Assembly: GCA_016196565.1 (NCBI GenBank)
Contig: JACPXK010000034.1
Location: 51,288-115,287 of the forward strand
From: Candidatus Omnitrophota bacterium
Lineage (GTDB): Bacteria > Omnitrophota > Omnitrophia > Omnitrophales > Aquincolibacteriaceae
DNA: 64,000 bases
Direction of reading: 5' to 3'
Positions 8,615 through 36,520 of the stretch are shown in pieces. The position numbers and the translations under genes are program-made. The notes below the pieces were generated by a model. The model worked only from the letters and a program-made list of their open reading frames with translations. It searched no databases and was not told where the DNA came from. The stretch's first letter is position 1. Each line of letters opens with the position of its first letter.

Positions 8615-10140
8615 ATGCCCGCTTATCTCAAGTACATCCCTGATTTTAAAAGAGTTACGGCATTCCTGACATGCTTTTGCTATGTCTTAACGCTGGGACT
8701 TTTTGATCATCAAACAAATGCTTACGCGCTGACGAATACTGCAGCCAATATTCCAAAAGCGGTATCTGTTTGGGATGCCTGGCAAGAAATTTCTATTCCA
8801 AATGATGCCGGCATCGTGGAAAAAGTTTTTCGCGGTACCTCCGATACAACCGTTTTTCTCATTCAAGACCTTCACGCTTCTTCTTCGGCTCAAAAATCCA
8901 TTCAAAGGCTCACCGAATTTTTAATGGAACACTATGCGGTCAATACGGTAGCGCTCGAAGGTGCCGCGGGGGATTTAGATCCCGTGCTTCTTCGCGCTTA
9001 TCCGGAACCCGAAAGACTCAAAAAAGTATTAAGCGAATATCTCGAGGCAGGTGAAATTTCGGGTGCCGCGATGTTGAGCGCATGGGACGTGAAAAATGCC
9101 CGCTTTACCGGCGTTGAAGATTGGAAACTCTACGAGCAAGGGTTGGAGGCTTTTTTGTGTTCTCTGGCGGCAGAAGGGGAATGGAAACCGCATCTTGATA
9201 AGCTTCGATTGAAAGTTAAAACGCTTCAAGAAAAATATTATTCTCCCCAAGCTTTGGAATTTGTCCGGCAGTTGAATTTATGGCGCAAAGACTTTTCGAA
9301 TTTTGCCGAGTTTTTAAAATTTCTTAATAAGCTTAATAAACAAAACCAAAAGGAAAATCAAAAAGTTTTGTATCCTCACCTTTGGCAAGTCTTGAATCTT
9401 TTAGAATTCGAAAAATCTCCGGACTATCGAATGATTGATCAGGAAGTGCAAACGCTTACGGCGGCTTCATCTTCTCGCGATGACATGATTGGCCTCAATC
9501 AATGGAAACAGGCTTTTCATACCGGGCAAATGGGTCCGGTGGAAATGGCGGAACGTCTTCTTACGCTCAATCCTCAATTAAAAATTTCCGGAAAACTTCA
9601 GGAATTGATACGAGATCATCAAATCTTGAAAGGCGCCCTTTCTTCTTCACTCATGAGCGAAATGGAGGGTACCATCAAAGAAGTTAAAGCAAAGCTGCTT
9701 ACGACACCCAAAGAAAGAGAAATCGATGAGCTGGATGAAAAAACGGAATGGCTTGAAGATTTGTCTAAGTTTCAGCTTACGCGTGAGAAGTGGGATAAGA
9801 ACCCTGACGTCACTTCACTCAGGATGACAGATGCCCATCGATTTTATGAAATCGCCGTCAAACGCGAAGAAACGATGCTGAGCCGGCTAAAAACTCTTGT
9901 GGCAAAGCAAAATGTCATTTTTGTGGCCGGAGGTTTTCACAGTCCTGGAGTTCAAAAAGATCTCGAGAAGTCCGGCATCTCTTATGTGCTTTTGACCCCT
10001 CATGTTGATTCTGTTCCAAATCCCAAATTGTATTTTGATCAAATGCAGGGAAAATTTTCCTGGAGGTCTTATTTGAAACCGCAAAATGGCCGCGTGAATT
10101 TATACGACGCCTTTATGCGCGCGGTGCGTGATAAACTTCT
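8615..10140 (+). other. Giant ORF module 1: signal peptide and ChaN/TIKI-like domain
   Basis: After the signal-like segment, residues about 80-465 resemble the ChaN/TIKI (haem-uptake/TraB-like) fold: VFLIQDLHASSSAQKSIQRL near residue 80, then VALEGAAGDLDP, and a late FVAGGFHSPGVQ block followed by SYVLLTPH. These correspond to the early His, the E-G and the late GxxH positions of that superfamily. Assignment is by pattern only; whether it is a haem binder or a metalloprotease is open. Confidence 0.45.
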
Positions 10141-13100
10141 TACCCGTTCCACGTCACAATATCAAATCAAACTCTGGCGTGATAATTTAATCCGCCATTT
10201 GGCGGATGAAAAACGAATCGAGCAGGCCTCAAGCCACACCCGTTTTCTCGACGAAATAACGCCCGCGGGTCAAGACAATACGCTTCTCAAAAATCTTCAG
10301 GCGAAATGGGAGGTCCGTTTCAAAGCCTTCGCCGACGGCCTCCGCCGCCTGGAACGCGAAGGAAAATTAGACAACGCAAACATTGCCCGCCTTTTTCAAT
10401 CTCCTGCCTCCGCCACTTACATTCAAGCAGAGCCATTGGTGCAAGGGGCAGAACTCTCAGACATTTTACTTCATCCCAAAATGTTAAAGCCTCGTTCTGA
10501 GCTGCGAAGTCTGGAGAGTCTTGATGCGCTCAAACGAGAAGTGCTGGAAGAAATTCAAAAAAGAGAAACCTTATTATTTTTTAGGGAAGAGTGGGATACA
10601 AAATCCTTTATCCATTTTGTTAAAGGTCAAGCCAACGCTCTTAAGATTAAAATTTCGTTAAAAAAACAACCATATTGGCATTTTCTTTTGGACGCTCTGC
10701 AGCGTATTTTGTTATTTCCTTTTCTAGGAATTAATGCATTGGTCCACGGAGAATTTGCCGCAAGCACGCACTTTTTCTCATCGGCTATTGACCATGTCCT
10801 TCTGTTTTCATTGCAAGCTGATGCTCCTCATATCTTTGCATATTACAAAAAGCCAGGAGACCAAGAAATCCGGGTTTGGGCTCACTTTGCCCCTTATTTT
10901 GGAATCTATTTTATGCCTTGGCTATGGGGGTTTTTTTTCACGCAAAAGTTGTGGTCACTCGGACATTTTACAGCTTATGCGATTTACGGAATTATTGGCT
11001 TTTACCTTTATGGTGTTCATGAAAATAATCCCAATGTAAAAAATCATGAATGGGCGCATGCCTTTCAATATGTTTTATTAGAGCGTATCCGACGGAAATT
11101 AAGTCTTAAAACAATTTATGAAGTTTGGAAATTAATCCCCAATGAACATGTTATGGAACGTGCCGTGCCTGGCATGTGGGACCTTGCTATTTCTCCAGAA
11201 AAAATCGCGAGCGATTTATTTGACAGCGTTCGGACCGGCTGGAAAAAACAGCTTGAAAAAGCAAAGCCGGCCCGCTCTGAAATGCGAAGTCAAACAGTCG
11301 TCGATGAAGAAGCCGCAGATAGATATCTTAAGTATGTAGTTACGAGCCTTGTTGTTCAAATTAAAGACCCAAACAAAAAAAGATGGGCATTGAATGGAAG
11401 AAATTTGAATCTTTTCCGAAATGCTTTGGTTTCGGGCAAATTAGACAGTCATGAAAGAAAATGGGTCGTTGAATCTCTGCCGATCTTTCTGGAAGACTAC
11501 ATCCCAGGGCCTTTCCGGTATGAAAACGTTGATTGGAATCAAATTCTTCTGACCTTATCCGATGTGAGGGTGGAAGTCGATAAACATGTTCTCTTAAAAG
11601 TTATTCTTAAATTCGTTCAAAATACGCAGACTCATCCCGAGGTTTTTGCCGGCTCTGATTGGAATCGTTTTCTCATGTTTGCTTACAATCTCGCGACCTT
11701 TACGGCTGATCCGGGAAAGGAATTGCTGGCAATCATTCCACCTTTTCTTGAGCTTGCCAAAAAACATCCAAAAAAATTCAGAACCACGAACTGGGAGAGT
11801 CTCTACCAAGCATTTTTTAGGAGGCTTGTCGAGAGTTTGATGAATGATGGAAAAATTACTACCTACGAGGAAATTTCAAAAGTTGCAAAAAGTTTTATGG
11901 AACTCGATCCAGAATTTGAACTTGAACTTGATCCGGATTTGCCCGAGAAAGAAATCATCGACGCGATCGAAAATTTTAAATTTTTAGAAGAGGTAGTAAG
12001 GCGATGGTCGGTTCTCATAAAAAAAATCATTCTAAGCAAACCCCATTTGCTTGCACGATTGAAATCCCATCAACATCTCATCGAGGAAAATATCCGTCCT
12101 GGTTTTGGTTTGGTGGTGAAAAAGCATCCAGAAATTCCTCTCGACCAGTTAGTTACCCTGGGTGCCAAAAGTGGAGCGGGAACGGAAAAAAGAGAAATTG
12201 TGCTCACTCCCACTGCGGACGCTGCAGAGTTAGCCGGTAAAATTGATCAGATGCGAGATCAAACGGGAAGTGATGAAATACAACTTTCCATTGGTTACGA
12301 TACAGGCATAGACGGACAGTTAGAAGATCGCGGCAAATTCATAGCCTTATGGCTTTATATTTCTAACACCTATTTGCCGCGTTTTCATCCCCTTAAAAAA
12401 ATTCATCAAAGAGATGGCGGTGCGGCTCATGGTCTTCTGATTCGGGGAGAAGACATGGTGATTCGGTGGGAAGGCCAGCAAAAAGGACGCCGGCTGGATT
12501 ATGTTTTTCGATTGCCGCCCTATCTCAAAGGAAAAAGTTTGGCCGCTTTGATACGGCAAGTGCAGCTTTTGAGTTTGGGAATGCTTTTGGCCTGCGAAGA
12601 AGAGTCTGCTCATGAATTGTTTTGGCTAGAGCCTTCTTGGATGGATGATCGCATGAAAGCGATCGCCGAAACTTACCGGGAATTTGAGCGGAATTTTATC
12701 GCGTTTTTGAGAAGTTATGACCACTATTCAAATTCGGAAGATGTTTTAGAAGTTTCCGAGCATGACGCACGCCTTGGGGCCATGAGCTTATACCGGGTTG
12801 AAGAAGCGTTATTTCCTAAATACCGGTGGCTGGTTCCTCTAAAAACCATACAGCCTGACAAGAAAGACGTGAGCTGGAATCGATTATTGCCTTCAATGCG
12901 CGCTATCGAAGCGAAAATGCTTCATCGAGGAGCCACTGAAAAATCTTTCGGATCGGGACTTAGATTGGCGGTCGGCGCGCAATTTATTCGAGACTCCCGT
13001 AATTTAGGCTATCAAACCGCGGAAATCATCGAAGACTTGTTGAAAGCGAATAAAGATGAAATTAAACCGTCCAAAACTCTCGAAAGTTACGATCCTTTTA

Positions 13101-16100
13101 TTACTCCCTCGAACCGTGAGGCCACAAGATATTATTTGCAAATCATGTCGCATGCTTTAAAAATTGATCCCGCGTTGTGGAATCGTTTGCCTGATCCAGA
13201 GGCTTTTGGAGCGGCATTGAAAGAATATCAAATAGAAATTCCCCGGCGAAGCGAGCTTCGTTCAAAGCGGATTCGGCCGGTAAATCGCCCGGCAAAACTT
13301 CCTGATGAAGACGAACCTATCGAGATACCGGAATATGTCCCTGCACCGGCCGAAGAGCCTTCGGAGCCTGAGCGCGAGCCTTATGTCGATCCCATTCCGC
13401 AGCCGGACGAAGAACCCGTTCCCGTAGGAAAATCTCGTTCTGAAACTCGAAAAATTAAAATAGCCAGTCTTGCCTCAATCTCAAAAACTTTGAAAGAAAT
13501 TGCTTTGCTGCGCAAAAAAGACGATGACGATCAAGCGGCGGAACTTCAAATATTGCTTTACCGGTTGATTTATCAATTAGGGTTAAGGGGCCGGATGCTT
13601 TATCCGAGCATAGGCAATGATACTTTAGCTTCGTATTTTTTTGATGTTAAGGCCATCAATCGATATGGCGGAGTAGGTAATAATGGCTCTATTCCCTTAG
13701 CGACACAGATCCGGAAACTTGAATCTGAATTTTTAAAGAGTCACGGACTTTTACCCAAGCACACGAAAAGAAAGAAAAGGCTGAAGGTTTATTCCGTAGA
13801 TAATTTCAAGTTTATGAATTCACCGTATGTTAAACAGCTTTTAAAGAATGGCCGGAAGGTTGATATTGTTTTGTTAAAAGGTTTTGTGCATTGGGGGAAT
13901 TATTACGCCTCTAGTTCATTTCCGGATCCAGGTGAAATTGAGCAAGGTATTCGTAAATTCATCGAGGATGTTGACTCGCATTTATTGCGTGACGGAGGAT
14001 TTGTTGTTCTTGCTGAGGAACATGATTTGGTTTTGCGAAGGTATCTTAAAAATTTGGGTTATCGAAATTATTTGGAAGAATTAGAAAAATCTGGAGCAAT
14101 TGATGATCACCTGAAGCGAAAAATAGAAGCCGCCTTTCGAGGGACAGGAACGGATATCCCTCGTTACACGGGCGGCAAGAAAATCGGTACGGTGGATACT
14201 TCCTTTGCCGGACCCATCACCATTTTTCAAAAAGTTCCACCTTCCGCGCTTCGCTCCGAAGTGCGAAATCTGGAGAGTCTTGATGCGCTCGAAAAGCAGG
14301 TATTGAAGGAAATCCGGGAAAATCAACCTTCCTCCCTTTTCTTGGGAGGGTGGGACATCAAAACTTTTATTCGCTTTGTTGAAAACCAAGCAAGGGCTAT
14401 TGGAGTTGAAATTAAACGGAAAAATTTGCCCTATCGTACCTTTTTTGGGGAAACCCTAGGACGCATCTTTCTGTTTCCTCTTAAAGGGATTTATGCCTTG
14501 ATTCAAGGCAAATACGTTATCGGAACGCACTATTTATTATGGGGCTTTAGCCACGCCGTTTTGTTTTTATTGCAAGCGAATTCTCCGCATGCCTACTTGA
14601 AGTACGAGGGGTCGAAAATCAAAGAGATCGGAGTCTGGGCGCATTTTACCCCGTATTTCACAGGTTATGTGATGCCATGGCTGATGGCTTCTTTTTACAC
14701 AAGAGAGTTATGGTCACGCGAACATTTTTCGGCTTATGTCGTCTATGGAATTTTGAGCCTCTTATTCTACTTCGTTCATGAAATTGCCCCTGATGTGAAA
14801 AGCCATGAGTGGGGGCACGCCTTTCAGTATATTTTATTGGAGCGCATTCGCCAGAAACTGAATCTTAAAACACCCGCTGAAGTTTGGAATTTAATTCCGG
14901 ATGAATATTTTTCCATAGAACACGCCGTGCCTTCTGAAATGACACAGACCTACAGTGTTTCGCCAAAAGAAATCGCGCGTGACTTATTTGATAACATTCG
15001 AACCGGCTGGCAATGGTCGCTCTGGAATGAATTACGCTATCGGGCTTTAATTCAAGACAATAGTTGGGGCGAACCTGCCAAAGAATATTTAAATGTCTAC
15101 CGTAGTTTGCTCTCCCGCTCCGAAACGCGGCGTACTTATCCGGAAGAAGCCGAACAACTGGTCCGCTATGTCAGGGAAGGCAAGCCGGATAAATTTTTTA
15201 ATCCTGCCATAGAACCTTTCGCCGGCGCGAGTCAGGGAAGAAGTTTCAAAATGCCGGTATCGTCCGGCCGCGTGACTTTCGGGACTTGGGATGATGATGA
15301 TGAAAAGCAGCACAGTCTTCAATTGAGATTGCCCGGATCGATTTTAAAAGAAGTTGCAGCAGGTTCCTTGGAGGTAAAGACCAAGGCGGTTTTTAAAAGG
15401 GATTTGCCGCCGGGTTTCAAAGATCAATGGACTTTGGAAGTTGAGGTTCCTGGCAAAAAAGAAACAAGGAAATTTTATTATCGTTTTGAATCTCCCAACC
15501 ATTTGAGATTTATTCCTTCGGATGCTAAACATGATATTGTTTTCTTTTATTTCGCGGAAATCTATAACGACCCCGGCCTTCCTCCCATGCGAGAGAAAAA
15601 ATTGATTATGAATGGAAGGGCTGATGCTGCTCATAAAAAAGTTATTTATTCTTTTGGGCAATCGTATCAGGACCCAAGGATGGTAAAAGATATTCAATTT
15701 ACTCTAGCCGATGTTCCCGACAACCAGCCTGCCGTGATAAGCCCTTATTTTGACCCAGGGATAAAGAAGTGGTTTCTGAAAATAGAAGTTTCTCATCCGG
15801 CCTATCCCAAGCCTCTTTATTATCGATTTGACCGCAATTATTTTCACGGACTGCGCCTCAGCCGGTATGGCGATGCCAGTTTGGCCGAATTGCGGAAAAT
15901 CCTTCGCGAAAATATTCAAAAAGCCCCGCGTTTTGAAGACCTCAAAACCTTAAGGGCATGGTATGACAAAAAAACCGCGGAGGATTTACCTCATCCCGTT
16001 TATCCGAACCGGAAAATCAGCCTTAATCGAGCGGTTCATAGGCTGGGCAAAGCTCAAAGAATCAAATATCGGCATAAAGTGGAGGGAGAACTTATAGGCT

Positions 16101-19100
16101 GGAATTTTCTGCAAAGGCACAAGTGGCTTCTTAATCTCGAAAAAACTTTTGATGCCACCCCGCAGGGAGTGGTTGATTATATCGATTGGCACGACGATCA
16201 GCTTGACGACAAACTGGCCACGGAACCTCAATTTGGCGGAAAAAAAGCCAGTTTCATGTATGTCGCTTTGGCCATCATTCAAGCGGAAAAAATCAAAGGT
16301 GCTTCCACAAGCTTTTGGAGGTATGTGGGCGATGCGCATAAAGCCATTGAATTTAAGAAAAAAATTTCCGAGAGAACTATCAAAATTCTATCCCAAGAAC
16401 CAAATCTCAGATACGAACAAATTCCCGGCCAAATCCCCGGCTGGCTTTACCGGGAAATAAAACCAACCCGTATTTTTCCTAAAAAAAATGGCGCCAAACA
16501 TGCGGAATACGTTAGAGGAATTATCCGTATGGCTTACCTGCTTTATCTTAGGGATTTGATCCAGCAGCCCACGGCTCGCCGCCGCTCCGAAGCTCGTCAA
16601 GAACTTCAAAGAGCAGTGCCTGAAACACGGGTTTCAGGCCGCTCGGAAATGCGGGCGGCATGGCAAGGCGGGCCTTTTGAAAAAGAGGTTTATGAGCTTT
16701 GGCATCATTTGGATGATCGTGTGGAAGCCAATGAGATTTTACGAAAGCTTAAATTAAATAAAAACTTCGTCGCGGGAATGTGGCTTGGGCAAATCGAATA
16801 TGAGAAATGGCAAGACAGTGTTGGGGGTCCGCCGACCCCTTGGGACAATTTTTTACAAGAAATATGGGAAAGCGTAAAACCTCATGTGCTTCCCAAAGGT
16901 ATCGATCCCTATTATTTGGCTTCCTTTGTAAAACTTCATGTCGCAAATGCCATTCAGCATGCCGTATCCAGAAATGGCCGCGCTATTCTTTTAGTTCTCG
17001 CGAAGGATAACGGTCAAATAGAAGAAGATCCTGAGTTTTGGATTTATTTATTGGATTCCGGACCGGGAATGAATGCTTTTGAAATCGAACACGCACAGTA
17101 TCGTACAAGATCGACAGAAGGCCCTCAGCATAATCTGCCCGCACTCAGAAGAGAAAAAAATCTGGAGGATTCTGATGACTGGGTCCACGTGTCCGATGAT
17201 ACTTTGTATTATCAAAAAACCCGGTCTGTGGATATTCCGGCTTTTGAATCCCCGAAAAAAGGTTTTCTCTTTGCCCTTCATCTTGATCCCAAGGCTTATC
17301 GTCTTTTTGGAACCTTAGAAAAGGAAGGAGATGAGATTGAGATAGATCCTGCCGCCATCGGTGAAAAGTGGATTCATCTTGTGGATCATCCTTTCTTTGA
17401 ACCGCTTTCTCCTTTAATGCAACAGAGTGTCAATCGTGGACGGGGTAAGGGGGAGGAAAGCGTTGAAACGAGCACACCCGAATATTTTATCCGCTATGCC
17501 CCAAGCGACGATGTGAATTATGTCGGGATTAAAAATATGATGACGGGGGATGATCCGAAATGGATATTTATTCTTGATGATGAAGTGGTTTTTGATCCTA
17601 GTCTGGGATTGGAAGGAAGAATTAAAAACGGCAAACTCATTTTAAGACGCCTTCGTCCCGCCGCCGGTATTCCTGACCCCATGGAAATTTTTGTTCCTGC
17701 CGAAAAACAAATTTCTATCGAAGAGCCATTACTTCCTCTTTCTGATGATGAAATAGTCCGATTGCGGGAAAAATGGAGTGCGAAACAAAAAATCCTTCCT
17801 GAAGAAATTATAAAACTGATTTTGCGGGCTCTAAAAGATATTGAACAACAACCACAAACGCATTTGGCATGGAGACTCATGGGGGACATGTCTCAAGAAA
17901 GCCCGCCGCTGAAGGAGATCTTAGCCAAAGGGATAATCGCTTATACGAAAGTAGGTTCTTTCCCTCTTTATCAACGCAAATGGCTAAGAACACTGAAGGC
18001 TTTCCTCGCGGAGAATTTTTCCCGCTCTGAAATGCGGACGGATCAAACTGAAAAACTCATCCTGGATCTTGGGCTAAATCAGAAAAAGGTGCGGGAAGGA
18101 GCCGTACGTGAATTATCAAAAAAAGGATTGCCGATTCTTCCTGATCTCATTGGCGCTTTTCATCAGGACAATCCTCTCATCCGGCATGGAATTGCTTGGG
18201 TGATTGGGAAAATAGGAGGACGTTACGCGGCAGGCGCCGTCCCTGTTTTGACAGATGCTCTGCAAGACCCGGTGTTGGGGGTCCAGCTTGCTTCCATTTG
18301 GGCGCTCGGGCGTATCGGTCCTATCGCGGGACGAAATCCGAAAGTGATTCAAATTCTGGAAAAACATTCCGGAAGAAAAAGAAAAACGAAATTGAGCGAT
18401 GCCGCGGCCTTCGCCTTGGAGAAAATCGATCCTCTGGAATTGCAAGAGCCTTCCCGTTCAGGATCTAAAAATCCTTTCTGGCTTAAAAGCATTCAATTTG
18501 CCCGTGACCCCGAAGGAAGAGAAGTCCTGCCCTCCAGCATGACTTTTCAATGGGGATATTTGCATGAAGTAAAAGTCGCGTTGCATCATGAAATCATTCG
18601 GGACATCGCCAAGGGACAATTGGAGCATGCCTTACAGGATATCAAAGAACAAGGCTATGACATTCGAATCGGAAAACAATATGTGGGAGGTTTATTACTA
18701 GTTCTTCATCATGCGGAGGAAGATGTGACCTTAGATCAGTCTCCGGGCAGTGTTGTGGCCGAACTTGACGAAGATGTACGCAACCCAAGTTATCTTCAAT
18801 TTCCTGAGGTCCTGGAAAAATGGTGGGGAAGATTAAAGGGAAGCGGGGTAGGGCCGGCCAATAGCCGCCTTCATCCTTCCCGACGCCAGCAATCAACCAA
18901 CGGCAAAACAAAAAGAGACTTGATAGAAGCCCGCCTTAAAGCCATTTGGGGAAATCCTCGTTTAGGAACGCTGCAGGCATTGATCGCGGAGCACATTCAA
19001 AGAAAAACCCCCGGCCTTGGGGCCTTGATCCTCAGGATGGACACTGAAAATCCTCAAGCTTTCGGAGGGGCCGCCAGCGAACTTCTGCAAATTTCTCAAC

Positions 19101-22100
19101 TGGAAAAAAGTATTCGCGGAGCTCGAATTATCGGATTCGGTTTTGACGTGGGAAGAAAAGGCCTGCCTCAAGACATTGACGGTTTTCTTTTGGTGGACAA
19201 AGATCACCGCGATTTTTTGAGGCCCGAGCAAAGCCGGGAATTTCCAAACGGGCTTTATTTTGTGGAGGCCAAAAGAAACACCAGTGAAAAAGAAAAGGCC
19301 ATGAAAAGAGTTGTCAATCGGACTTTGCGGGACCAGATTCCCGATTATATTTTGGGTGTTGAAAGGCTGGAAAGAATGATGACGGAAAAAATGAATTTGG
19401 CGGTGCAGGGAGTGTTTCTTATGGTGGGCGGGCCGCAGACATTAAAGGCTGAGGGCAATGGATTTTATGTATGGCGTTCTGAAGAAAATATTCCCGTTTA
19501 CATTATGGCCGGTTCCGCCAATGGATTTAAGCATTCTTCTCAGGCCATTCCTTTTCCTCAAGCAAAGGCCATGGACGAATTGGCCGAAGAGTCCGCGGAG
19601 GCTTCTTCGATTTTGTTATCGTATTCCGAGTCCGCCCAAAAAGGTCTCTTTGCTCCGGCTGTGACGCCGTTTCCTGATTGGGATTTTCCGCCGAAAAATC
19701 TCCAGCTTAAATCGGAGCTGAGAATGACAAAACCTTCCTTCCTTGCCAAAATCGATGAGGAAGAAAAAAGACGTGTGCTGCAGGCCACTGAAATTCATGG
19801 CTCGGAATTTCGCGGCAAAAGATTAATGGTTCAAGACCTCGAGCGGCTCGGCATGGTCCCGGAATACAAACTTGTTCTCGACGGCAGAACCATTTATCTT
19901 CCAAAATTAATTTATGATATGGGGCATGACGGCCGGGTTGCAACCACGCTCTTTGTTCAAGACGATCAGCGTCCGGGAGAATCGGCAAATTATGAGCGTT
20001 ATGTCGCAAGGACTTATTACCGCAGCAATTCTCATGGCGGCTCATTGCGTTATTTGCCGTCCGTCACTTCCTATGACGGAAGAAATATTGAGCATTTTGA
20101 TAAAGGTTTTGATGAAAATTCCATTCCCGCGCCCTATGAAATCTTCAAATCGTTTTATGAAATTTTATTTGCTCATGGGGTCGGACAAATTGAAGATTTT
20201 GAGGACCGTGAGCGAATGTTTGCCGGGACCACTCATATCCGGGTTTATTCTCAGGGTCCAACTCGGGATGAATCAGATTCGGAGCCGGGCCAAACCTATT
20301 TTGCGACGGTGAATGCTAAAGGAGAAGTGCTCAATTCAGATTCTCACTCTTATGGGAGCAATTCTGATCCTACACCGCCCGAAAAAGTTGGCGTGACCAA
20401 TCCCGAAAAGGCCCCGAATCTTGAAGATTTAATCGACGAATTTCCCATTTTGTCCGGAATGAGTGATGGAATTCCGGACCGGATCCGCCTAGGGGGAGAA
20501 AGCCTCCAACCTCCGGACCCATCGGGGTCTCAAAACAAGGTTGAAGTAAATCTTCCGGATGGAACACGCATGAGTTTCAAACGCAAACAATACCAGAGTG
20601 AATATTTTCTCGAGAGCCTAAAACGGCCGGATGGGTTTCTTTATGAGTATAAGTATTCTGATGAAGATGGCGCCGGCTTCCGCCATTTCAGATCGGCTTT
20701 TATCGGAGAAGATAGTGGCATGAGCGGTAGAGGTTATTCTATCGCTGAATCGTACGGAACTTATCATTATGTGGAGTCGATATGGGGTGAAAAACATATT
20801 TTTGATTCTTTGGGGCGTTTGATACGGATTGATCCCAAGCAGGGAGATCCTATTTATTTTGATTATGGGCTCATGACCGCCCGCGTTTTGGATTCTAAAG
20901 ATAAAACACAAACACTCCGTTATATTTTTGTGACGGACAAACACAAGCGCAGCATGATTCCTTCCATTGAAGAATTAAAGTCTCCGGTCAATAAACTTGG
21001 ATTACGCAGCGAATGGGTTAAAACGCGCTCTCTGACCATGCCGCTTTATGAATATTCCGGCAGCCAAGCGAGTTATTTTTTTGATATCGAGGATCGATGG
21101 GGGCCGTATTTCGGTCTGTGGCGTGGTTATCACCGGCATATTCGTTTGATTCAAGATTTTCATCGCAAATTTATCGGCGAACTGACTCTCGAAGAACCAA
21201 AACCGAAGGTGATTGCCGCCATTCCCATGATGCCTCGGATTCCGCCTTTGCTTGCCCTGGATCAACTTGAAGACGCATCTCCAAAAAATAAGGGGGACAA
21301 GCAAACGGTGGAGGAGCAAGAAGAAACTAATGCGGGGCTCACGCAGGCGATGTGGGAAACTTTTGTGGCGAGTGAAATAGCTGCCGCAACGGAAAGGCCA
21401 CCGTTTGAAAGGCCCGGCGCCAAAAAAAGTGAAAAATTACAGATCGGCGGTGTCGTTTATGAGGTTGAGCTGAAAGATTATGGTGATTTGGCGCTGCAAG
21501 AAGTCGGCAAAGATTATCGCTCCGCTTCCATTAGTTTTTTTGCTATTCAAAACGGAGATGTTGTTGTTCTTGGAAGAAGTGGTAAGGTCAAGGAAGACGA
21601 AGACAAGGGGCCGAAAGCCCACGCCATCAAGGTAGAAGACGGCACGGTTTCGAAAATTCATGCCCAGATTAGCTTTGAAATCCTGCCGGCTCCTCATCAG
21701 CCTGGTTTTATTCTCATCAAAGCCTATGTGAAGGATTTTAAATCCAGAAACGGAACAAGAATAGCCGGCAAAAAAATCACACCGAATCGGCGCATTCTCC
21801 TGGTCCAGCACATTATTCAAAACCCTTTCCGCAGTTACCGCTCCGAAGTTCGAGTTTCAGGCCGTTCCGAAGTGCGGGATATAAATCAACTTCGCATTAG
21901 AATAGGCCGTCTTAAAAAGCATATTCAAAAAATTGAAAATGATGAATATGTGCCCATTATTTACTTTGGAGATAAACATGGACAGGCTGAAGATCTTGAA
22001 AAAATTCTTCGCAAAGTAAAGGTTGCAGAACAAAAAAACCGTCCTTTGAGCATTGTTGGGCAAGGAGACATTTTTGCGGATAGCCCAAATAACAAACGGG

Positions 22101-25100
22101 TTTGGGAAATTTTAAAAGAGTTAAAACGAATTTCAAGTCGCTCTCCTTCCATCAAAATCGATTGGATTTTTGGCAATCACGAAGTTTGGATGGTTAGGTC
22201 TTTATTGCTCGATGATAAGGTGACTCGTGAGTATTGGATGAAATGGGTCGGCCAAAAAATGATGGATCAATTAGGAGGCGAAGAAAAAACTCAAGAATTG
22301 GCTTTGTGGCTGCTCGAAAACTCTAAGTTTTTTCATAAGGACGAAAGGGGTCTTTTCCATGTTCATGCTGGGATTCCACTCAGAAGAGGAAGGGCAAACC
22401 TTAAACAATTAGAAGCCTGGCAAAAAAACCTTGCAACCATACAAGCGAAATTGAAAAGCGATCCCAGTTATTTGAATCGTCAGAATAATCAGGAAAAAGT
22501 GAAAATGCTTTTTGAGGAAGCGACTCCTCTTTATTGGCTTTGGCCTCATGAATGGCTGCTTCAAATCATGGAGGATAAGAAAAATATAAAAAAACTCGCC
22601 AAATCGTTAAAAGATGTCTCCACAATAACACGGACAAAAAAACCTGGGCCTCATGCCCGAAAAGTGGAAGGGGAATTAAATGATAAGCCTTGGTGGATGC
22701 GTCATTGGATTGCTTTGACTGAATTTCAAAGGGCGGCATTTGAAAGTGCGAAACTGAAAAGGCCTGGCTCTCAAATCGACAAAGTCCAACTGGATCAAAT
22801 GCTTCAAGATATTGATGCTTATGGCATTGTGCTTGGCCATGCCCATACGCAAGAGGTCGTGAATTTAGACGGGCGTATTTTTTTGATCGCTGTCGAGGAA
22901 CCGGGCGCCGGTGATCCGGGGCATTTAGTTTTTGATCGAAAAGGTATTGCTTTTCATTCAATAAAACGCAAAAAAGAAATACTTCTCACAAAAACTCAAA
23001 TCTTGACCGGGCTTCGTGAGGAATTATCACGTTTGCAAAAACTTCTTTCCCGCTCAGAAACTCGTCATGAGTTTCAAAGAGCTGTGCCTGAAACATTAGT
23101 TTCAGGCCGTTCCGAAATGCGATTGGATGAAGATAAGTTTGTGTCATTAATCAAACAAGCGATGGCAAAAAAAGGAGAAGAGGGAAGCATTCCGGTCCTT
23201 TGGTTTGTGAAGGGGGAGGAAGAACACGGCGTTTACATCAATCAAAAATTTGCGGAAGAACATCGGCAAGAATTTTTGGAAGGAGTTCGAGAGTTAAACC
23301 GGTTTTATAAGGCCAAATTAGGCATGCCGCTGAACGGGATGATTTCTTATGTGCTTCTGGGCGAGTTTCCGGAATTTTATTTGGAGCAGGCTTACACCAT
23401 GGTGCTAATGGCTGTCGGGCATGTCTTGGGTTTCTGGAAAATTTATCCGGATTGGAATGCCGGAGAAAAACTTTCGGAAGACCAATGGGATAATTCTAAA
23501 ACACGGCTTCCCTATATTCACAAAATCAATACTCCGCTTATCGATTCACCCCCAGTTCCGAGCCATCCCCCCCTTGAGCGAATTATCGAGTTGGCAGAAC
23601 GAAATGGCAAAAAGGCCTTTGAAAAAATGGTTTTGTTAAAGGAGTTTCTTAAAGGAGATTTTGGAACGGTCCGGTTCAGCGTTTGGGACCCTAAGTTTAT
23701 ATTGAGTCCGGTCGCACATCCCGCCGTTTTATCTTTAGAACCGGGAAAACAGACAAAATATATTCAAGAACTGCAGCTTGAAATTACTCTGCTTGAAATA
23801 AAAGACGGCCGCGTGAAACTTTTGGTCAAAAGTTTCGAAAATCGCAATAAATTTGTCTGGGACAAAATGATCGAAAATATTTTTAGTTTTCAAAATAATT
23901 ATCCCGATGACCCTGTTTTGGAAATACGCTTGGCTCAAGGTGATTTCAAAGTGACGTGGGATGTGGAAAGAAACGGAAGCCAGGAAGAATTATCCTTGCC
24001 CATTTTGTTGGAAGACGAAACTTCTCTTACGGAGGAACGCCAGGAGGAATTTTTTTCTTATATCGAGGAACAAGCAAAGCTTAGAGAAGGAAATATTCCT
24101 TTTAAGGTAGGATTTGACGAAAAGTCTTTTGAGGTTCAAATCACGAAAAACGCTGATCCCTCGAAAATTACATCCATAAGGCTCATTATTAGGTCTGAAG
24201 CAAGGGTGAAAAATAGTAAAAATACGGCGTATGAAATGATGATCAAAGAATTTGATCTGGCTCGTGTCTCAGCGCTCTTTCTTCCGGAAACGGATATGCA
24301 GGCTTTTCGAGCTGAGATAATTGCCCAAGGCTCAAAACGTTTTATCGGAGCCAAGGGGGTTGACCTTGGTATGAGCGATCCTTTTTCTTTCGGGTCCAGC
24401 CAAGGATGGCAAATTTCCACGGAAAAACCTTTCGATGGAAATACACGGTTTAAATTGCATCACCCGTCCCACGGAAATGGCCGGGATTTTTTGGCCTGGG
24501 GGATTGTGAGAAAACAAAGCGATGATCAGAGTATCCTTACCGGGCTGAGGTCAGAACTTCCGGCCGATGTGGGACGTGCCATGTCTCAAATTTCGGATTT
24601 GGGCCATGGAGAAATTGTTAAAGCCCTGCTCGATCTTCTTTCTAAACCTGAAAAGACAAAATCTTACGTGCTTTCGAAAGGATATCAGACCTTGGCGAAA
24701 TTTTTCTCCGACCTTACGGAACGCGAAAAAGAGGAAGTCAGCACCCGCCTTCTGAAAGCATTTCCCCGTCATGAGGCTTCAAAAAAAGAACTGATGATCG
24801 CATTGCTTAATTTCGGAAATCGCATGAAAGATGAAGGGCTTCGCAAACAAATAGCGTTTGCTTTAAGTGACGGCATAAAACCCCATTTGAAGGATTTGAG
24901 AAATAAAAAATCGAAAATCGGCTCGGAATTGGCGAAGCTTCTTTTAGGTATCAACGATAAAGAATTTAAAGCGAGATGGATAAGAGGGATTTTGCCCTTA
25001 TGGATGACAGAGCCGCAAGAAGAGAAAGAAGCGCTTTCGAATTTTCTTAGTAATTGTTTGTTTTTTCACACGATCGATCCTGAAGATATTGCCAATGCCG

Positions 25101-28100
25101 TGAAATTATTTCCGGCCGGAATCGTTCCGGATGTTATCCGGGAAATGAAAGAATTATTGACATCAATTTCCATCAATCCGGTACTTCGCCAAACATTGGA
25201 AGACATGTTGTTTGAAATCGTGGAAGACCCCAGCTATGACCCGGAGTTTCAGATAGCGGCGGGACCCAAACCTTTTGAACATCGCGTCAGGATGGTGCCT
25301 TATTTGGTTACCCGTTTGCTGGATGGCGTCGGGCCGGGAGCCAGTGTCATGGCCCTTTATTTAAGTCAGGAAGAAAACGAATGGCTTGCCGAAAGGAACC
25401 TCGACAGGCATTACGGGCATGTTTTTGACGCTTTTGCCTATGTCCGGTTTTATGTTCGGGGTGGCACGCTTGTGGTCGGTGAAATTCAAAGTGACGATTA
25501 CCGGCATTATCACAAACATCCGGAGGCCCATGAACGTTACCGCGATTGGTGGAATGTCCTTAACCGTTATCTTGAAATTTACGCGTCCGCCCGCGGGCTT
25601 CGAAGAATTATTTATCCGGAGCCAGAACTCGTCAGCCGGCGTTGGAATACCCGAATCTTTGCTTTTCAGGTCAATCAATTCCTTTTGAAGCTTAAGCATT
25701 TTCCTCTGCTTCTCTATTTATTTCGTAGGATCCAGCGGATTTTGGGCCAGATCTTCCTTTTTTTAGAATTTCTCGACCGCTGGCATCTTCTTCCGTTTGG
25801 ATGGCTGCTTCGAAAAATTAAAATAGACCGGCCGCCGACTAAAGAATTAGTAAGAGTGCTCTATGCCCAAAATCCGGAGCAATCGGGTTATAAGCTTGAA
25901 ACGTTTCCCGTCCCGATAAATTGGGAATACGGACTTCGGATGACCCGGGGACGTGTCCGCTATTTGGAACCGGATGGAGATTTGGGAAAATTCGACAAAC
26001 AAATGGAGCTCAGGGACGGCTCCTTTGAGAAAATCTTCCATAAGATTATTTCACGGACGGTATTGTTTCAGCTGGAATTGAAAAATAATTTGACGGTTTT
26101 GAATTTGGCCTCGTTTCCCAAAGAGCTGCGCGCTACCTTTGCCCATATGCTAACGCAGGTCATAGGGCACGAAGCAAACAATCTAATGCTTTTTTTCATG
26201 GACCCGGCGTATGTCCTCAAGGTTGCCCGGGACAATCATAAAACGGCGGATGAATTTATAAAATGGCTTGAAACGGGATCGGACCAACGCCATCCGGATG
26301 ATTATTTGAATGATTGGATGATGGCGTTAGAAAAAGTGATTGCCAGAAGAAAAGAAAGTGTCAGGGATCTCATCAAAGAGGGCGCTTCGGATTCCGAAAT
26401 TAGCTCGGCCGTCACTTCGTGGATGGAGGGCGAACAGCAGTATGCGGATTTAGAAAAAATAAGACAGCTTGAGATCAATGTCAAATTGGATTTGTTTCGT
26501 TTGGGTTTTAGCCATATGGGAGCGTTCGCGTCTAAATTTGTAGAAAAAATCAAACCGCTTATCCATGAGGCGTTCCGTCATTCACCTTCGGGCCGCTCCG
26601 AAGCTCGTCAAGAGCTTCAAAGAGCTGTGCCCGAAACATCGGTTTCGGGCCGCTCCGAAGCGCGGATTGATTTGCAACCCGATGAAAATTTTCACCGGGC
26701 TTACCGAGATCCTGAATATCTCAAAGATCATCGAACCGGTCTGAAGAATTTTATCAATTGGGAGTTTTTGGGAGATCCTCATTTCCGAGGATGGAAACAA
26801 GGTTTGGAGGGAATTTATCCGGGAGACAGGCAAAAACAAGAAAGCGTGATTGGAGAAATTAATCTTCAAAGGTATCATGCTCCGCGCGATCTTTTTATTC
26901 CCGCTATGGCGGTGGAGCGTTTCGAAGATCGTCAAAAGGCTTATTACGACGATATTGCTTTTCGTTTTGGCGACGGGGGGTTGGTCCCCAAACCCATGAT
27001 GATGGTCCTCATGCTTGCTGCTTTGGATTTGAATCCGAATAAAATCATGCTTCACCTCGATGCGCGCAGTCCTGATGAACTCGCGGTAAGCAATTATTTG
27101 GTCAAACATGCCGTTGCCGTGATGCCTAACCGGGCCCTTGCTGAGTATGCCAAAAGAAGTCTCGAAAAAAATGGCCGCAAAAATATAAAAATCACAACCG
27201 GTGAAACGAAAGAATATCTCAACGGGGACCCTTACGATGCTGTGGCGATTTGGAATCCCATTGCCAATGTTCCGCAAGAACTGTTGGACCGGCTCCCGCA
27301 GGATGGAAGAATGGTTGTTCCGTTTGGAAACGTGGACCAATACGTCGTTCGATTGGGAATCAAAAAAGATGGGAAAATAAAATGGACAGATCTTCTCGAT
27401 AGCCGTCAAGCCGGGTTTTTGAAAGAGGCTTTCAATCCCCGCTCCGAAGCTCGTACCAACACCGATGTGTTGGTACCGCTAGACATTTCTGAAACTCGAA
27501 GTTTCAGAAAGCGTCAAGAGCTTCAAAGAGCTGTGCCCGAAACATCGGTTTCGGGCCGCTCCGAAGCACGGATGGAGGAAACAGTGATTTTTCCGGCCGT
27601 TCAGATAGAAAATTGGCGGACGGAAAATAATCCTGATTACTTAAGAATGTTGGAAATACAAAATACTCGATATATGGTCCCTGATCTTACTACTTTGTTG
27701 TACGCTAACGTAAAGCAGGGTCCTGCAATGGATTTTATAGAAATGGATCTAAAACTTTTGATTTTGTATTTGGCTTCCGAGACACCGATAGATTTTGATC
27801 AGTGGCAGGTTGGAAATAGGGTGACTTTTGAGTTTGATGGCGAACGCGAATCTATCTATGTCACTCCGGAAATGTTCGGTAGTTTTATCAAACCGCTTTT
27901 GGGGCATCTCCAAGATCACGACCGTCAGATCAATCTTAATGCTTATCTTTATCACGCACTTTGGCAATTGAGAAAGTGGGCAACACACCCTTGGTTTACC
28001 GACGATCTTTATCAAAAAATAGTCCCGAGGGTTACCAATCTCCATCCGAGGACACTCCTCAATTTTCCGCCTTTGGATTTAGAGGACTCTGAAGTCCGCT

Positions 28101-31100
28101 CCGAAACGCGAAGTCTTACTGCCGAAATAGATGTCGATTTGACCCTTCACGGCGATGGCTTGATTATTTCGCTTGGGACCATTAAAGAAAGTTGGGACAC
28201 GAATTTTCCTGAAGGAAGCTACGCGGCGGTGATTTTCGATGAGAATGCCGCTACGGAACGGAAAGGCGCGATTAGATTTTATGGGAATGCTCCTCAAATT
28301 AAAGAGCAATTAAGTCTGGGGCAGCCTTTGACGCTTTCCGCTGCTTATGCTCAATCTGGTCCATCGAAAAAAGGATATGTCCGGCGCGCTTACCGCCAAT
28401 TGCTGCTTTCACCTCAGATTAATAAAATTATTTCACCTTACGAAGAAATCGTCGGCCTGAGTTTTGAAGGGGCCGCGATGCATCATTGGCTGAATAGACA
28501 ACGAGACCTTTCCGTCACTTTCAATGGTAAAAAAGAAAAATCGAAATATTACTTTAATCTGCTGGGCATGCAGGTAAAAAATTTCATTTTGGTGGGTATT
28601 CTTAAAATCATCGAAATGGCGATTAGCTTGTTTGTCCGCGTCACTTTAGTCCGCCCTTATCTTCCGTCTCACTGGCATACCGCGAAAATCGAATTGTCCG
28701 CAAAACCTAAAACGGATTTGGCCCGGTGGATTCACAGGGCGGGGGAGTTGGCCGGTCAGGACAAAATAGGATCAAAGGAATTAGAAAAGATAATCAGGTC
28801 CGTCCCGCGCGTTCTAAAGCGCGATGAAACAAAATGGCTGAGATACATTTTGCGCGAATTGACCACCTACATGAACGACCGTGACGTCGTGTCGTACAAA
28901 GAAGGCAATAGTATTTCCGAAGAAGATCAGTCATGGATACGGCTTTTTATCGCTTTAGGGGTGGCTGTGCTCGCAAATCCGTCGGCTCCTGTCGAAGAAC
29001 TTCGCAAATTGGATCAAGTGATTGAGAAATTCAATCAGCGTTATCCTCAAAAGGCTTGGAGTTTTTCTCTCACTATTTTCATGCAGCTTGCCTTAAATGA
29101 TTTGGCCACGGAAGATCTCATGCCGGTTTTTCGGCGGCTTGCGGGCAATGGAACACGCCTGCCGGGAGAATACAAATACCGGATGGCGGCATTTACCTTA
29201 TTTTTATTAGGCATGCATGTCAGGTCCATCACCACAGCCAACAAAGAGCCTGAAACAGATTTTAACCCCAAGCGCAGTTTTGGTTTGGCGGTACGGACCA
29301 TTGAATCGGAAAAAAAATCGGAAAAGTGGGGCGATGATGTTCCTCGCGCGCTGCGGGAAGAATTGCTCATAAATTTAAAAGTCGGCTTAGTTCATTTTGT
29401 TTTGGGCTCCTCTCCTTATTGGGATCTTGAATCAAATGTGATGCGTAAATATCCCTTAGGCCGCACCATTCTTCATCCGGAAGATATTCCCAAATTCATT
29501 CCTTTACAGGAATTAATATTTCCCCACCGCGCGCTTTTAAAAAATGTCATTAACGAGATCAAACAGAAAAGCATGGATGCCGGTGTTTCTTTCGCGGGAA
29601 CAACCGTGTCTTGGATTACCCGGTGGTTCCTCAAAATTCATCAACAAGGGGAAAAACCGCCTTATCCTTGGGACCGCATTCTGCTTAACCCTTTTCCTTC
29701 AGAGCACGTGCCCTGGTTCGTCTATTTTTTTGCCGAAGAATACATTGAGCAAGAACGTATTTTGCAAGATCTTACCGATGCCGGCTTGACAAAACAAATG
29801 TATGAAGATTTGCTCGAACGTTTAGACGCTTTTAAAGCCGTCAAACGCTCTGAAGCGCGAACGATATCCGAGAGCTCATTTAATTCCGACGATGAACGTT
29901 TGTTCCGGGTCCTGGGGCTCTCCGAGCAAGAAGTCAGAAATCCTTTAGAATCTCTTCTTACCAAAAAAATCGTTCAACGTCTTTCAGAAAATTATGCTTG
30001 GGTTCGTCTGGCGGAAAAATTTGTCGAAAAATATCATCATCCGGCGTTATCTTCCAATAAGCCTTTCGAAATATGGGTGGAAATCATTCAGCGGGCTTTA
30101 CGGGAGCCAAAGGTTATTGATTTTATTCTTCATTCGCGGCGTGCCGTTATGACGGCGCCCCGTGCCTTGATATTGGGAAATAATCTGCGTACAAGTGATA
30201 GTACAATCGCCCACGCCCAAAGGCTTTTAGGTCGTATGCTTCCTTGGGATGTGAGGACTATAGTGGGAAAAACCCTCAAAGAAACATACGCTAGAGTTTG
30301 GATGCATGCCGCAAGTGATCCTGTCTCGATAGAAAACGCCGTTCGTGAGCCCGTGTCAGAACGATTTCAAGCCCTCTATAAATTCAACGAAAGAGAAGGG
30401 CTTCCTCTTACTTTGACGGATGAAGAAATTCCCAAAGATGAACATGCAATTAGCGGCCAAATGCACGCGCTTTCCTTGGAAACTATTTTAGCAAGGGACA
30501 TGGCTCAATGGATTTTAGAAACACGGCCTGATATTGTCGAAAATTTTGCCCAGCCAATAAAAGATTTTCATTTTGAATTCGATGGCAATAAAGTTTACGA
30601 AGCTCATATCGATTTGAAAACAACCGAAACTTCTACGATATTGAACGCAGATTTAATGCTGATTTCCTCTGATTTCATGCCGAGAGATAATTTTACTTTT
30701 CGGGGCCAATTTCAAGATGTTTTAGGACAGCAGTTACTTCGCTATATTCAAGCCAATGTCGTGACATTGTCTATTTATAATGAAGTTGCAGCGGAATTAT
30801 CAAATCCTAAGAGCCGGTTATTTCAGGATGTTCAAAATGCCTTTTCGTCAAGAATCAAAAAATCCAATGAGCTTGCTGTTTTCATCCAAGATGGTGTCTG
30901 GGATTTTGCGTATGAGCACATTGGCTTGAAAGCGCTGGTTGAAAAATTAGCAGAGAAAATCAAGGCTTTTGGATTAAGGATCGCTTCCGACGGCTATGTG
31001 GATTTAGGCAGCCTAAGAGTTAATCCCGAAGATTTTATTTTTGGCAGTGTAGGAAATGCGGTGAATGACTTGATTCGCTCCGGCCAGGCGTCCCACGTCA

Positions 31101-34100
31101 CGGCCAAGTTTGCGCAAGCGATTTTACAGGCCGTGCAAAATCCATCCGCACCTAGCTCCAGCCGTTTGGCGCAAAGAATCGTGGATGATGCATTTTCTTA
31201 TTTTCAGAAGGAATTAATCCGAGAAGGTTTTAATCGCGATAAGCGAATCATTACGCGTCCGCCTTATCGTTTCCGGCAGGATGATAAAAATCCTTATCCG
31301 ATTCCTTATCGTTTCGCCCATCCTCTAAGCGCTTCTCATTTTTCCCGCTCCGGAGCTCATCAAGAGCTTCGAAGAGCTGTGCCCGAAACATCGGTTTTGG
31401 GCCGCTCCGAAGCGCGGATGACGACCAAGATGCAATCTTCTGCAATATTAACAGCTAGCTACCGCGAAGAGATGGAACAGATGGGGTTGCTTTCAGACGA
31501 AAACTTGTTGGATTATCAAGAGCAACTAGAAGCTTTCATCGATCAACAATCTGAAAATATCGACGAGCAAGGGGATGGGCTGATTTTTAAAAAATTTCTT
31601 CCATCGCTGAAGGTTGTTGTTTCGGTTCTTTTGCTAATTGCGTTGGCCAATCTTCAATTCAACAAAAATCCAGCACTAAAATTCTGGGTTGCCATTTTGG
31701 ATTTAATAGCGATAGTCCTAAGCCCGACACTAGTCTTGATTTTGACTCATCGAAACTTAATTAAGGGACGTCAATATTTAAAGGATGCCCGGACTTCTCA
31801 TCAAATCGTTATGTATGAATTAGAGAAAAGAGGTTTGCGTTCCGAAGCGAGGATAAGCGATGAGGATAAAACGGATCCAAGAGGGATGATACCGTCGAGA
31901 AGTTTTCTTGAGGCGTTGGGATTGAAAGAGCCAAAATCCCTTTCGCGAATTTTGCAAAGTCATCCTGACGAACTTATCGAAAGAATCACCAGCGCATTAA
32001 AAAATAATTCTGATTTGATTCTATGGGCGCAAGAATACGTCCAAAGCCATTTTAAAGGCATGAGTTTGAGTGAGAGCGTTGCCCAAATTTCATTAAACAG
32101 GGTTCACCAGGAAGCGCTTGTGAATCCAGCCCGGGTTTTGGCGATTTTTTTAAGCCACGCGCTAGTACTTTTAAGCCGGCGGGGATTTTTAAAACGTTCT
32201 ACTTTGATGGCGACAAATCTTGCTTTAAAAAGACCGGATGCGAGTCTTCTGGCGGATATTTTTAAAAAAGGCCGTCAGGCATTTCCGCAAAACCGGCTAA
32301 TTGCCAAAAAAATCGAACCGCTTAGTTGGCTTACTTTTAACAGTCATCTGAAAGATGAGATACAACAGGAATTTAAACGCCGGCTCATCGATTTCGAAAA
32401 AACCGGGCTCATCCGTCAACGCTTTTTCTCATCCTCAGACCGGTGGAAAGCAGTTCAAAAGGATGAAGACCTTCACGGTCTTTATTTTCTTCCCGCCCGG
32501 CGATTAACCCTTCAAGAGGACCGGATTATCGGATATGAGCTTGGAGATGTTGACGGATCCGAACCTCAATTTCATCGATTTAGACGTTTGATTTCACTGA
32601 CGGACGCCCAGGCGCGGGAAAAAATCCAGAACGGCGAGCCTTCTTGGGCGTCATTTTATGCCAAGCGCGTTTTAGAAGCCCCCATGACCGAGCAAAGATT
32701 GTTTTGGGCCCAAAACGATTTTATCGATGAAGAAATTCGCCGTGCCGTTCAGCCGGCCTATTTAAAAATGGCAGAGCCTTTTATTAAATCCAATTTGCAA
32801 TACTATCAATCCATTCACGCCTTGCCGGAGCGTGATTTTCAAGCCTTGCTTAAAAATTATAGCAGGGAAGAGAATTTTTCCGATTGGGGAAATCCGCAAA
32901 GTCATATTAATCCTCAGAATGTTCGCCAGAAAGCGATTAGGCATATCCAAGCACGGCAAACGGGACAAGATAGACGGATTGCCAAAATCGAAAAACGTCT
33001 TGCTGAATTGATGTCGGGTATGAACTTTGACGGTATTTCCGGAGACGCTTCGGAAATACCAATTTTGGAAGCAAGACTAGAAGCGATGCAAAAAAGGGCA
33101 GGTCGTTTGCGTGGGGCGCTCATGAGTCTCGAAACCGAGTTAAATATGAAAGAATTAAAACGCCAAGCCGTAGAATGGTTTTTTAAAAAATTCCTTTTTC
33201 CTTCCGTTCTTCTTATTGCGTCTCATCGAATAACCCATTCCCGCTCCGAAGCTCATCAAGAGCTTCGAAGAGCTGTGCCCGAAACATCGGTTTTGGGCCG
33301 CTCCGAAGCACGGGGCCCTGGATCCGATGAAAAATTGACCCCGGAAGATAAGGAGCGATTGATTCGTCTGTTGATGTCCAGAACAAAAATCACAGATGAC
33401 CCTGAAGATATACGCAGGGATTTAGACGGTTTATTGGGAAGAAAGTATCAACAGGAAAGAGATGAGATCGTCAGAAAAGTAAACGAAAAGTGGCGGATCG
33501 CGGACCGGGTTTTATTGGTCCTTAATACACTTTTGCAGTTTCTGAAAAATTCAGAATTTAAAGATTTGGTCCGTGAAGAACAATGGGCGCCGGTCATAGA
33601 AGATGCCCGGAAAGCTGATTATAAGGGGATAGCAACTATGGTGCAGGATATTGATGGAGAAATTTCCCAACGTCAATTAAAAGACGGTCAACAGGATCCT
33701 GCCGATGAAAAGGCTGACGACAAGTGGGGACCCAACATGCGGTACTTATTAGCACTGGTCCGCTCCGAAGTGCGAGCAGTGTCTCTAGCCGAGCGGCTTC
33801 AAAATGCTGAAGCGCGCCGCCGCAGAGTTCAAGATGCCCATAATGCAATACCGCCGGGCAAGCAACCTTCTCTTACAGAGTTTGCCGCATCGTTAACTAT
33901 AGGCAGGAGGATTGCTTATAGAGATTTAGTAAAACTTGGGCTTTTAGATTCGGGTAAGATTAAAATCGAAAAGCATCTCATGGGCGAACCGCTTAAAACC
34001 CGTCGTCAAAAGGTGAAAGAGGCACATGATGCAATACCTGCAGGCCAGACAGCTACTGTTGCAGATATTGTTTCCTTCCTTGACGATCTTTCGGTGAATG

Positions 34101-36520: not shown

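Follow-up and report, generated by a model that had tools for sequence, protein, structure and literature searches.

A giant mosaic open reading frame of an Omnitrophota bacterium, with a common head, about 20 unlike modules and a recurrent five-residue joint that may mark cut sites

Results

A single giant frame in a row of ordinary genes

The stretch of 64,000 nucleotides analyzed here (the window), from an assembly labeled Candidatus Omnitrophota bacterium, contains an open reading frame (ORF) of 27.9 kb that runs on the forward strand from an ATG through 9301 codons to its sole, terminal stop (Table 1). The window is free of N, and the remaining five frames of the same stretch hold 297 to 590 stops, so that the single open frame of the original prediction stands. 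Because translation with table 11 meets no interruption, neither an unusual code nor a frameshift needs to be invoked. The secA product of the window is 77% identical to its counterpart in G004, a genome labeled Omnitrophota, and the ORF lies above the 20 kb that mark the giant ORFs of that phylum. In another genome, G008, the genes stand in the order seen in the window (a TPR gene, lptE, holA, murJ, uvrC, a giant, prfB, secA and lnt), and the same row recurs in G004 with no giant, the uvrC and prfB alignments there being about 205 bases apart. An ortholog with the same module order, for which the original prediction had proposed a search, did not emerge at this locus: the syntenic giant of G008 matches the window giant in the head (30% identity) and in no further segment at E 1e-5. 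A DUF1016_N gene (36603-37592, forward strand) sits between the giant and prfB; no match to it was found in the syntenic regions of G008 and G004, and a 32% match lies upstream of prfB in G003.

Table 1. Features of the giant ORF, in window coordinates (bit scores are from Pfam scans of the whole chain, except for the tRNA-like gene)
Feature	Coordinates	Strand	Remarks
Giant ORF	8615..36520	+	9301 codons plus stop; frame read under table 11
Head module, aa 1-626	8615..10492	+	signal-like start; EreA/ChaN-like predicted fold; common to giants
27 RSExR joints, aa 627 to 9257	10493..36385	+	plus RSEAH at aa 8210 and KSELR at aa 3699
HEXXH module copy 1, aa 632-886	10508..11272	+	motif; putative function
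HEXXH module copy 2, aa 1885-2167	14267..15115	+	duplicate of copy 1
76-nt in-frame palindromic element copy 1	16579..16654	+	
GHKL-like module, aa 2681-3136	16655..18022	+	motif only
HEAT_2 repeats, aa 3178-3268	18146..18418	+	Pfam, 48 bits, above curated cut-off
FHA-containing module, aa 3704-4408	19724..21838	+	common with giant P0001
FHA domain, aa 4318-4400	21566..21814	+	PF00498, 24.1 bits, curated cut-off 20.7
Metallophosphatase module, aa 4422-4812	21878..23050	+	PF00149 at aa 4447-4540; 44% identical to P0015
76-nt element copy 2	23047..23122	+	
76-nt element copy 3	26590..26665	+	
PCMT-like domain, aa 6101-6260	26915..27394	+	Pfam, 58.1 bits, above curated cut-off
76-nt element copy 4	27496..27571	+	first part diverged
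76-nt element copy 5	31342..31417	+	
76-nt element copy 6	33238..33313	+	
HTH-like tandem repeat module, aa 8388-8907	33776..35335	+	7 units by eye
tRNA-like gene	35546..35621	-	antisense within giant ORF; Rfam 56.4 bits
C-terminal segment	35702..36517	+	ends in Ala; likeness to other giants' tails only suggestive

A head followed by unlike cargo modules

The 9301-aa product starts with a sequence that, judged by eye, is signal-like as predicted, and continues as a long succession of unlike sequence: an N-terminal head module, as in the other giants of its family, and about 20 unlike cargo modules, most of them bordered by the pentapeptide RSExR. The expected chain of single, unlike domains within one ORF is borne out by the Pfam matches (FHA, HEAT_2, PCMT and metallophosphatase), and among these the predicted FHA and PCMT-like domains pass their curated cut-offs in the whole chain. 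The supposed distinctness from nonribosomal peptide and polyketide synthetases (NRPS/PKS) and from adhesins holds as well, since Pfam scans of the whole chain and of modules alone reported no domain characteristic of NRPS, PKS or repeat adhesins. The suggested module-by-module profile search added the metallophosphatase, which reaches the cut-off in a scan of its isolated module (PF00149, 30.8 bits, cut-off 21.5), and a marginal match of the HTH-like repeat region to PF01035 (27.3 bits, cut-off 27); it returned no match for HEXXH copy 1 or for the GHKL-like module. The tandem repeats taken for HTH units are present, with marginal Pfam support for their nature, and the HEXXH and GHKL motifs are present, the protease and ATPase activities that they suggest being putative. 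The two HEXXH modules, for which no Pfam family was reported with copy 1 run alone and both within the whole-chain scan, are mutual duplicates with 49% identity, and their dN of 0.33 against a dS of 1.29 points to divergence under purifying selection. The metallophosphatase module used as a query matched one of 7997 scored candidates, on a 3495-base contig that itself carries RSESR, and no relative encoded by a separate gene was found in that search. A structure model of the junction from the FHA domain across the joint to the phosphatase had a mean pLDDT of 42 and was unusable.

The head is about 600 aa long, and its modeled fold is closest to EreA/ChaN-like proteins. The likeness to these proteins is suggested by the predicted fold of this part of the giants, and a comparison with Pfam and with the sequences of solved structures gave no match worth naming. 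Among the heads, the candidate catalytic residues His87, Glu115, Glu168 and His442 are invariant in all 18 sequences aligned, and the head might, on the strength of the model, be a hydrolase. Relatives of the head were confined in our searches to Omnitrophota and Elusimicrobia/Endomicrobia. As a query, it matched two of 7996 scored candidates, P0013 on a 3047-base contig and P0014, which is named as partial; eight stretches matched in viral contigs, none of them a relative. By hydropathy, a hydrophobic stretch was seen near the start of 49 of 53 giants as against 8 of 24 controls.

A recurrent pentapeptide at the module borders

RSExR, which the original prediction had missed along with the palindromic elements and the antisense tRNA-like gene described below, stands at most module borders of the window giant, with x mostly L, V, A, M, T or I. 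The 27 motifs of this ORF compare with 0.22 expected from composition, and in six frames the window yields two further matches, both on the reverse strand. In a set of 52 giants (266,691 aa), 387 motifs stand against 6.8 expected. The set leaves out P0001, P0006-P0009 and P0011 (0-4 motifs each) and L001, L004, L013, L018 and L030, and it includes 36 giants fetched later by the head alone; of these, all 28 from G002-G009 carry 1-14 motifs, and the eight from G010 and G011 carry 0 or 1. When a script ranked five-residue motifs with and without one wildcard, RSExR or RSELR came first in 12 of 13 distinct giants, the exception being an Elusimicrobia giant (L004, the same gene as G002C7, was left uncounted). 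The 18 giants chosen for carrying RSExR hold 207 motifs against 3.4 expected. Their one-residue variants, pooled, are in no excess (170 against 180.5 expected), and a few single variants are: RAExR (25 against 5.2), KSExR (12 against 2.7), RSExH (6 against 0.9) and RNExR (7 against 2.0). RSExR was absent from a set of 200 complete ordinary ORFs that total 71,072 aa and come from loci of motif-bearing genomes; 1.37 were expected, so that avoidance is not significant. In almost all giants, different codons spell the four invariant positions, TCN being the favored choice for Ser and CGN for the leading Arg, yet the residues R, S, E and R do not change; the motif is therefore kept at the protein level.

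None of 23 curated domains in seven giants has the motif inside it, as against a mean of 5.2 under random placement, which gave zero in 0.1% of trials (P 0.001); the closest domain borders are those of FHA (9 aa), GDE_C (13), HPr (14) and PCMT (16). The ten residues on each side are disorder-prone on the TOP-IDP scale (z 5.0 and 7.3), with an excess of Pro at position -2 and of Ala, Ser, Thr and Asn at position +1. The spacing of the motifs is irregular, and its median of 361 aa is in the range of a normal protein. Four motifs lie within homologous blocks, one of them clearly inside the metallophosphatase of P0005, and some long stretches, as in G002C7, string together several domains with no motif between them. 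Met directly follows 14 of the 387 motifs, with 7.2 expected, and internal starts at the joints are therefore not a general rule.

Homologous modules in different surroundings show how the borders relate to the joints. Homology between the FHA-containing modules of the window giant and P0001 stops at RSExR in both. In P0015, the metallophosphatase is preceded by a HAD domain rather than by FHA, and RSE-type joints adjoin it there too. Two giants of G008 contain between them three copies of a 750-aa module; for one pair of copies, the homology stops at RSELR on both sides of the comparison, and for the other it continues 60-130 aa beyond the common joint. These comparisons indicate that giants exchange cargo at or near RSExR joints.

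Palindromic elements that carry the joint

Six copies of a 76-nt palindromic element lie in frame within the giant ORF. Each is made of two hairpins, and its ends encode RSExR. Four copies that were folded gave z scores of -3.3 to -5.2, and over the six copies 94.8% of cells are paired; two pairs are changed on both sides, a count that does not exceed the shuffle control (103 of 500). No copy was found elsewhere in the window with a 31-nt core query that recovered four of the six known copies. Rickettsia palindromic elements are likewise hairpin-forming palindromes that lie in frame inside ORFs; the repeats of the window differ in that their ends encode the joint motif and in that the window search found them inside the ORF alone. 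They illustrate a route by which a giant may gain further joints, and RSExR may have spread by copying.

RSExR could also be seen as a scar at the DNA level, a residue of copying or recombination between giants, for example via these elements, with no role in the protein. The motif at the ends of the elements, double motifs spaced 18-20 aa apart in other giants, the preference for TCN and CGN codons, and the coincidence of module ends with joints are all in line with such an origin. Yet the codons vary behind constant residues, one-residue variants show no overall excess, and the core pattern of the element has no match in 114 loci from other genomes, although RSExR abounds there. We therefore regard a scar as an improbable account of the joints.

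A family of giants with a common head and C-terminal end

The window ORF is a member of a family of giant mosaics, with many per genome, found here only in Omnitrophota and Elusimicrobia. Its members have the head, the joint motif and the C-terminal end in common, and their cargo differs even at the same locus. The candidate new system of the original prediction is thus confirmed as a mosaic, not as a lone protein but as part of a large family. In an out-of-sample check, 24 of 27 giants ended in Ala, as does the window giant. A tail module profile matched in 6 of 11 genomes; with an hhalign E of about 0.05 for the tail of the window giant, we do not claim it as a member. Giants of Elusimicrobia and some of Omnitrophota (L023, L024, L026-L028, L032, L036, L037 and G011) have the head and no RSExR, and mostly a final Ala where the end is seen, so the motif is not essential to all giants; those lacking it may use another joint or none.

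In several genomes N-free frames reach up to 13,048 aa, and the 16 giants retrieved from G008 total 92,773 aa, about 8% of its 3.5 Mb. A frame of 26,995 aa (G003:C5) was discarded as mostly undetermined or masked letters, a fault that the lengths of some other long frames, whose sequence was not retrieved, may share. Such N-free frames weigh against the notion that giants are decaying fusions, formed from duplicated genes by loss of stops, or artifacts of assembly, as do a dN well below dS between duplicated modules and the head, joints and C-terminal Ala common to giants. In the window, the ORF reads through an antisense tRNA-like gene near its 3' end, which has an 8-nt anticodon loop by eye and to which ARAGORN gives no anticodon name; this gene and the seeming loss of some active sites would suit decay, an explanation that is already hard to hold and that we rate as the least credible.

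Cargo of the relatives and its ordinary counterparts

HPr, a PEP-utilizing enzyme, histidine phosphatase and sigma-70 region 4 are among the cargo of the relatives, as is a series of glycogen enzymes accompanied by domains of PPDK and glutamate dehydrogenase; several giants have no or nearly no Pfam match. Many of the cargo modules of relatives are divergent paralogs of housekeeping proteins (HPr, PFK, PGK, SecA and glycogen enzymes). The best-scoring copies of PGK, PFK, HPr, SecA and phosphorylase are mostly separate ordinary genes, and giants carry further, diverged copies. PGK was matched in 22 of 29 genomes, 21 of them with an ordinary ORF of 395-493 aa, and the ordinary genes score about 1e-150 as against 1e-35 and 1e-37 for extra copies in long frames; in G022, PGK was matched solely within a frame of 2740 aa (E 6.5e-77). 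Ordinary ORFs encode PFK in 29 of 29 genomes, HPr in 11 of 11 and full-length phosphorylase in 7 of 11, with no such phosphorylase found in 2, and SecA was matched in 18 of 20, in some as contig-end pieces only. The idea that giants are the sole source of essential enzymes is thus mostly rejected, the exception being G002, where the only GDE_C found sits in a giant in an assembly that may be incomplete. The original prediction had set its single chain against relatives with the modules as separate genes; this holds in part, with separate genes present for PGK, PFK, HPr, SecA and phosphorylase. The giant copies of these are extra and divergent, and for the metallophosphatase of the window the search above found no separate relative.

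Judged by eye against active-site motifs that we take to be diagnostic, HPr, one histidine phosphatase and the lysine region of phosphorylase seem intact, while another histidine phosphatase, a Nudix module and the PCMT module of the window seem to have lost theirs, the last lacking the glycine-rich SAM-binding motif that is presumably a PCMT feature.

The consecutive domains GH77, GDE_C, DUF3417, phosphorylase and starch synthase in G002C7, together with the fact that the only GDE_C found in that genome lies in this giant, raise the prospect of a multienzyme chain in the cytoplasm, its start an anchor or unused and its modules channeled or coregulated enzymes inside the cell. Against this, the window giant and most scanned giants combine unrelated domains, hydrophobic starts are general, and PFK, HPr and phosphorylase score best in copies encoded by genes of their own; we hold such a chain to be very improbable.

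Discussion

Giant ORFs are known in Omnitrophota (Seymour et al. 2023, PMC10066038; PMC11573180; PMC12057145), where, going by the accessible part of the first account, they have been an open puzzle: very long, with few recognizable domains and no clear function (PMC10066038). That part describes them as poorly conserved, with adhesin or transmembrane features, and the window giant resembles them in phylum, in an ORF over 20 kb, in its few recognizable domains and in their presence in many genomes; the account, in that part, makes no mention of a common head, an RSExR joint or a C-terminal Ala (PMC10066038). With these three signatures, many giants fall into a single family of defined units: the sequence itself shows where a module begins and ends, modules of different giants become comparable, and processing becomes testable via ends at RSExR. 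A literature search for the strings RSELR, RSEVR, RSEMR and RSEAR returned alginate-lyase papers only, and one for Omnitrophota polyproteins, for polyproteins more widely and for giant proteins found no such account, an earlier description being possible in giant-gene literature outside its coverage.

The reading that we favor, with confidence somewhat short of even, is that the window ORF encodes an exported polyprotein in which RSExR most likely marks cut sites. The chain would be exported through Sec and its modules would fold separately; an arginine-specific protease would cut at RSExR, in the simplest case behind the second Arg, and the released modules would serve as separate envelope or secreted proteins, the housekeeping paralogs among the cargo of relatives presumably having been repurposed. 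This fits one leader, protein-sized units, a five-residue separator, flexible surroundings and a small residue after the second Arg, and a recurrent separator between protein-sized units, as expected of polyproteins, is indeed found in the giants. We count in its favor the statistics of RSExR, reordered homologous modules bordered by it, the hydrophobic starts, the apparent purifying selection and the active-site motifs that some cargo seems by eye to keep; against it we count the motifs inside homologous blocks, the multidomain stretches free of motifs, the giants free of RSExR and the seemingly inactive cargo. An analogy may be drawn with plastid proteins of Euglena and dinoflagellates, which are made as polyproteins processed at short conserved linkers and likewise join one leader, protein-sized units and a short recurrent separator. 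These repeat one protein, whereas the window giant has unlike units, a bacterial host and a processing that we infer.

A wider form of this proposal is possible but rather doubtful: a phylum-wide polyprotein system of Omnitrophota with many genes per genome, the head as a possible hydrolase, interchangeable cargo, an Ala tag and a dedicated arginine protease. As parts of that same proposal, and with the same doubt, cargo would be swapped so fast that syntenic giants keep only the head in common, and it would amount to a parallel exported set of paralogs of housekeeping enzymes and machines.

Alternatively, the giant might stay uncut as a whole mosaic scaffold in the periplasm or on the surface, with RSExR as a linker or as a docking motif for a partner such as a chaperone, an export factor or an envelope component. 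Most facts are explained equally well in this way, since identical motif statistics do not separate cutting from binding, and the giants free of RSExR have the head and C-terminal Ala too. Peptides of the giant ORF of V. archaeovorus have been reported and an extracellular coat proposed, according to the accessible part of that account (PMC10066038). On the other hand, the joints are irregularly spaced, and the cargo of relatives includes complete paralogs of soluble enzymes (HPr, glycogen enzymes), which make no obvious scaffold. We consider an uncut scaffold a serious contender, though one that is probably not the answer. If polyprotein cutting as favored above does occur, it would represent a bacterial polyprotein strategy on a scale for which we know of no parallel; if the giants remain uncut, many of them would carry RSExR as a short docking motif that is new.

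SecA- and HPr-like segments in other long frames

Divergent SecA-like segments, 24-39% identical, occur in frames of at least 2,300 aa in G005:C59 (L114), G006:C47 (L112), G008:C42, G011:C25 (L113), G012 and G017, all apart from the ordinary secA; the whole frames that hold them may contain N. At G006:C49 (13957-14886), three HPr-like segments follow one another within one 7884-aa frame.
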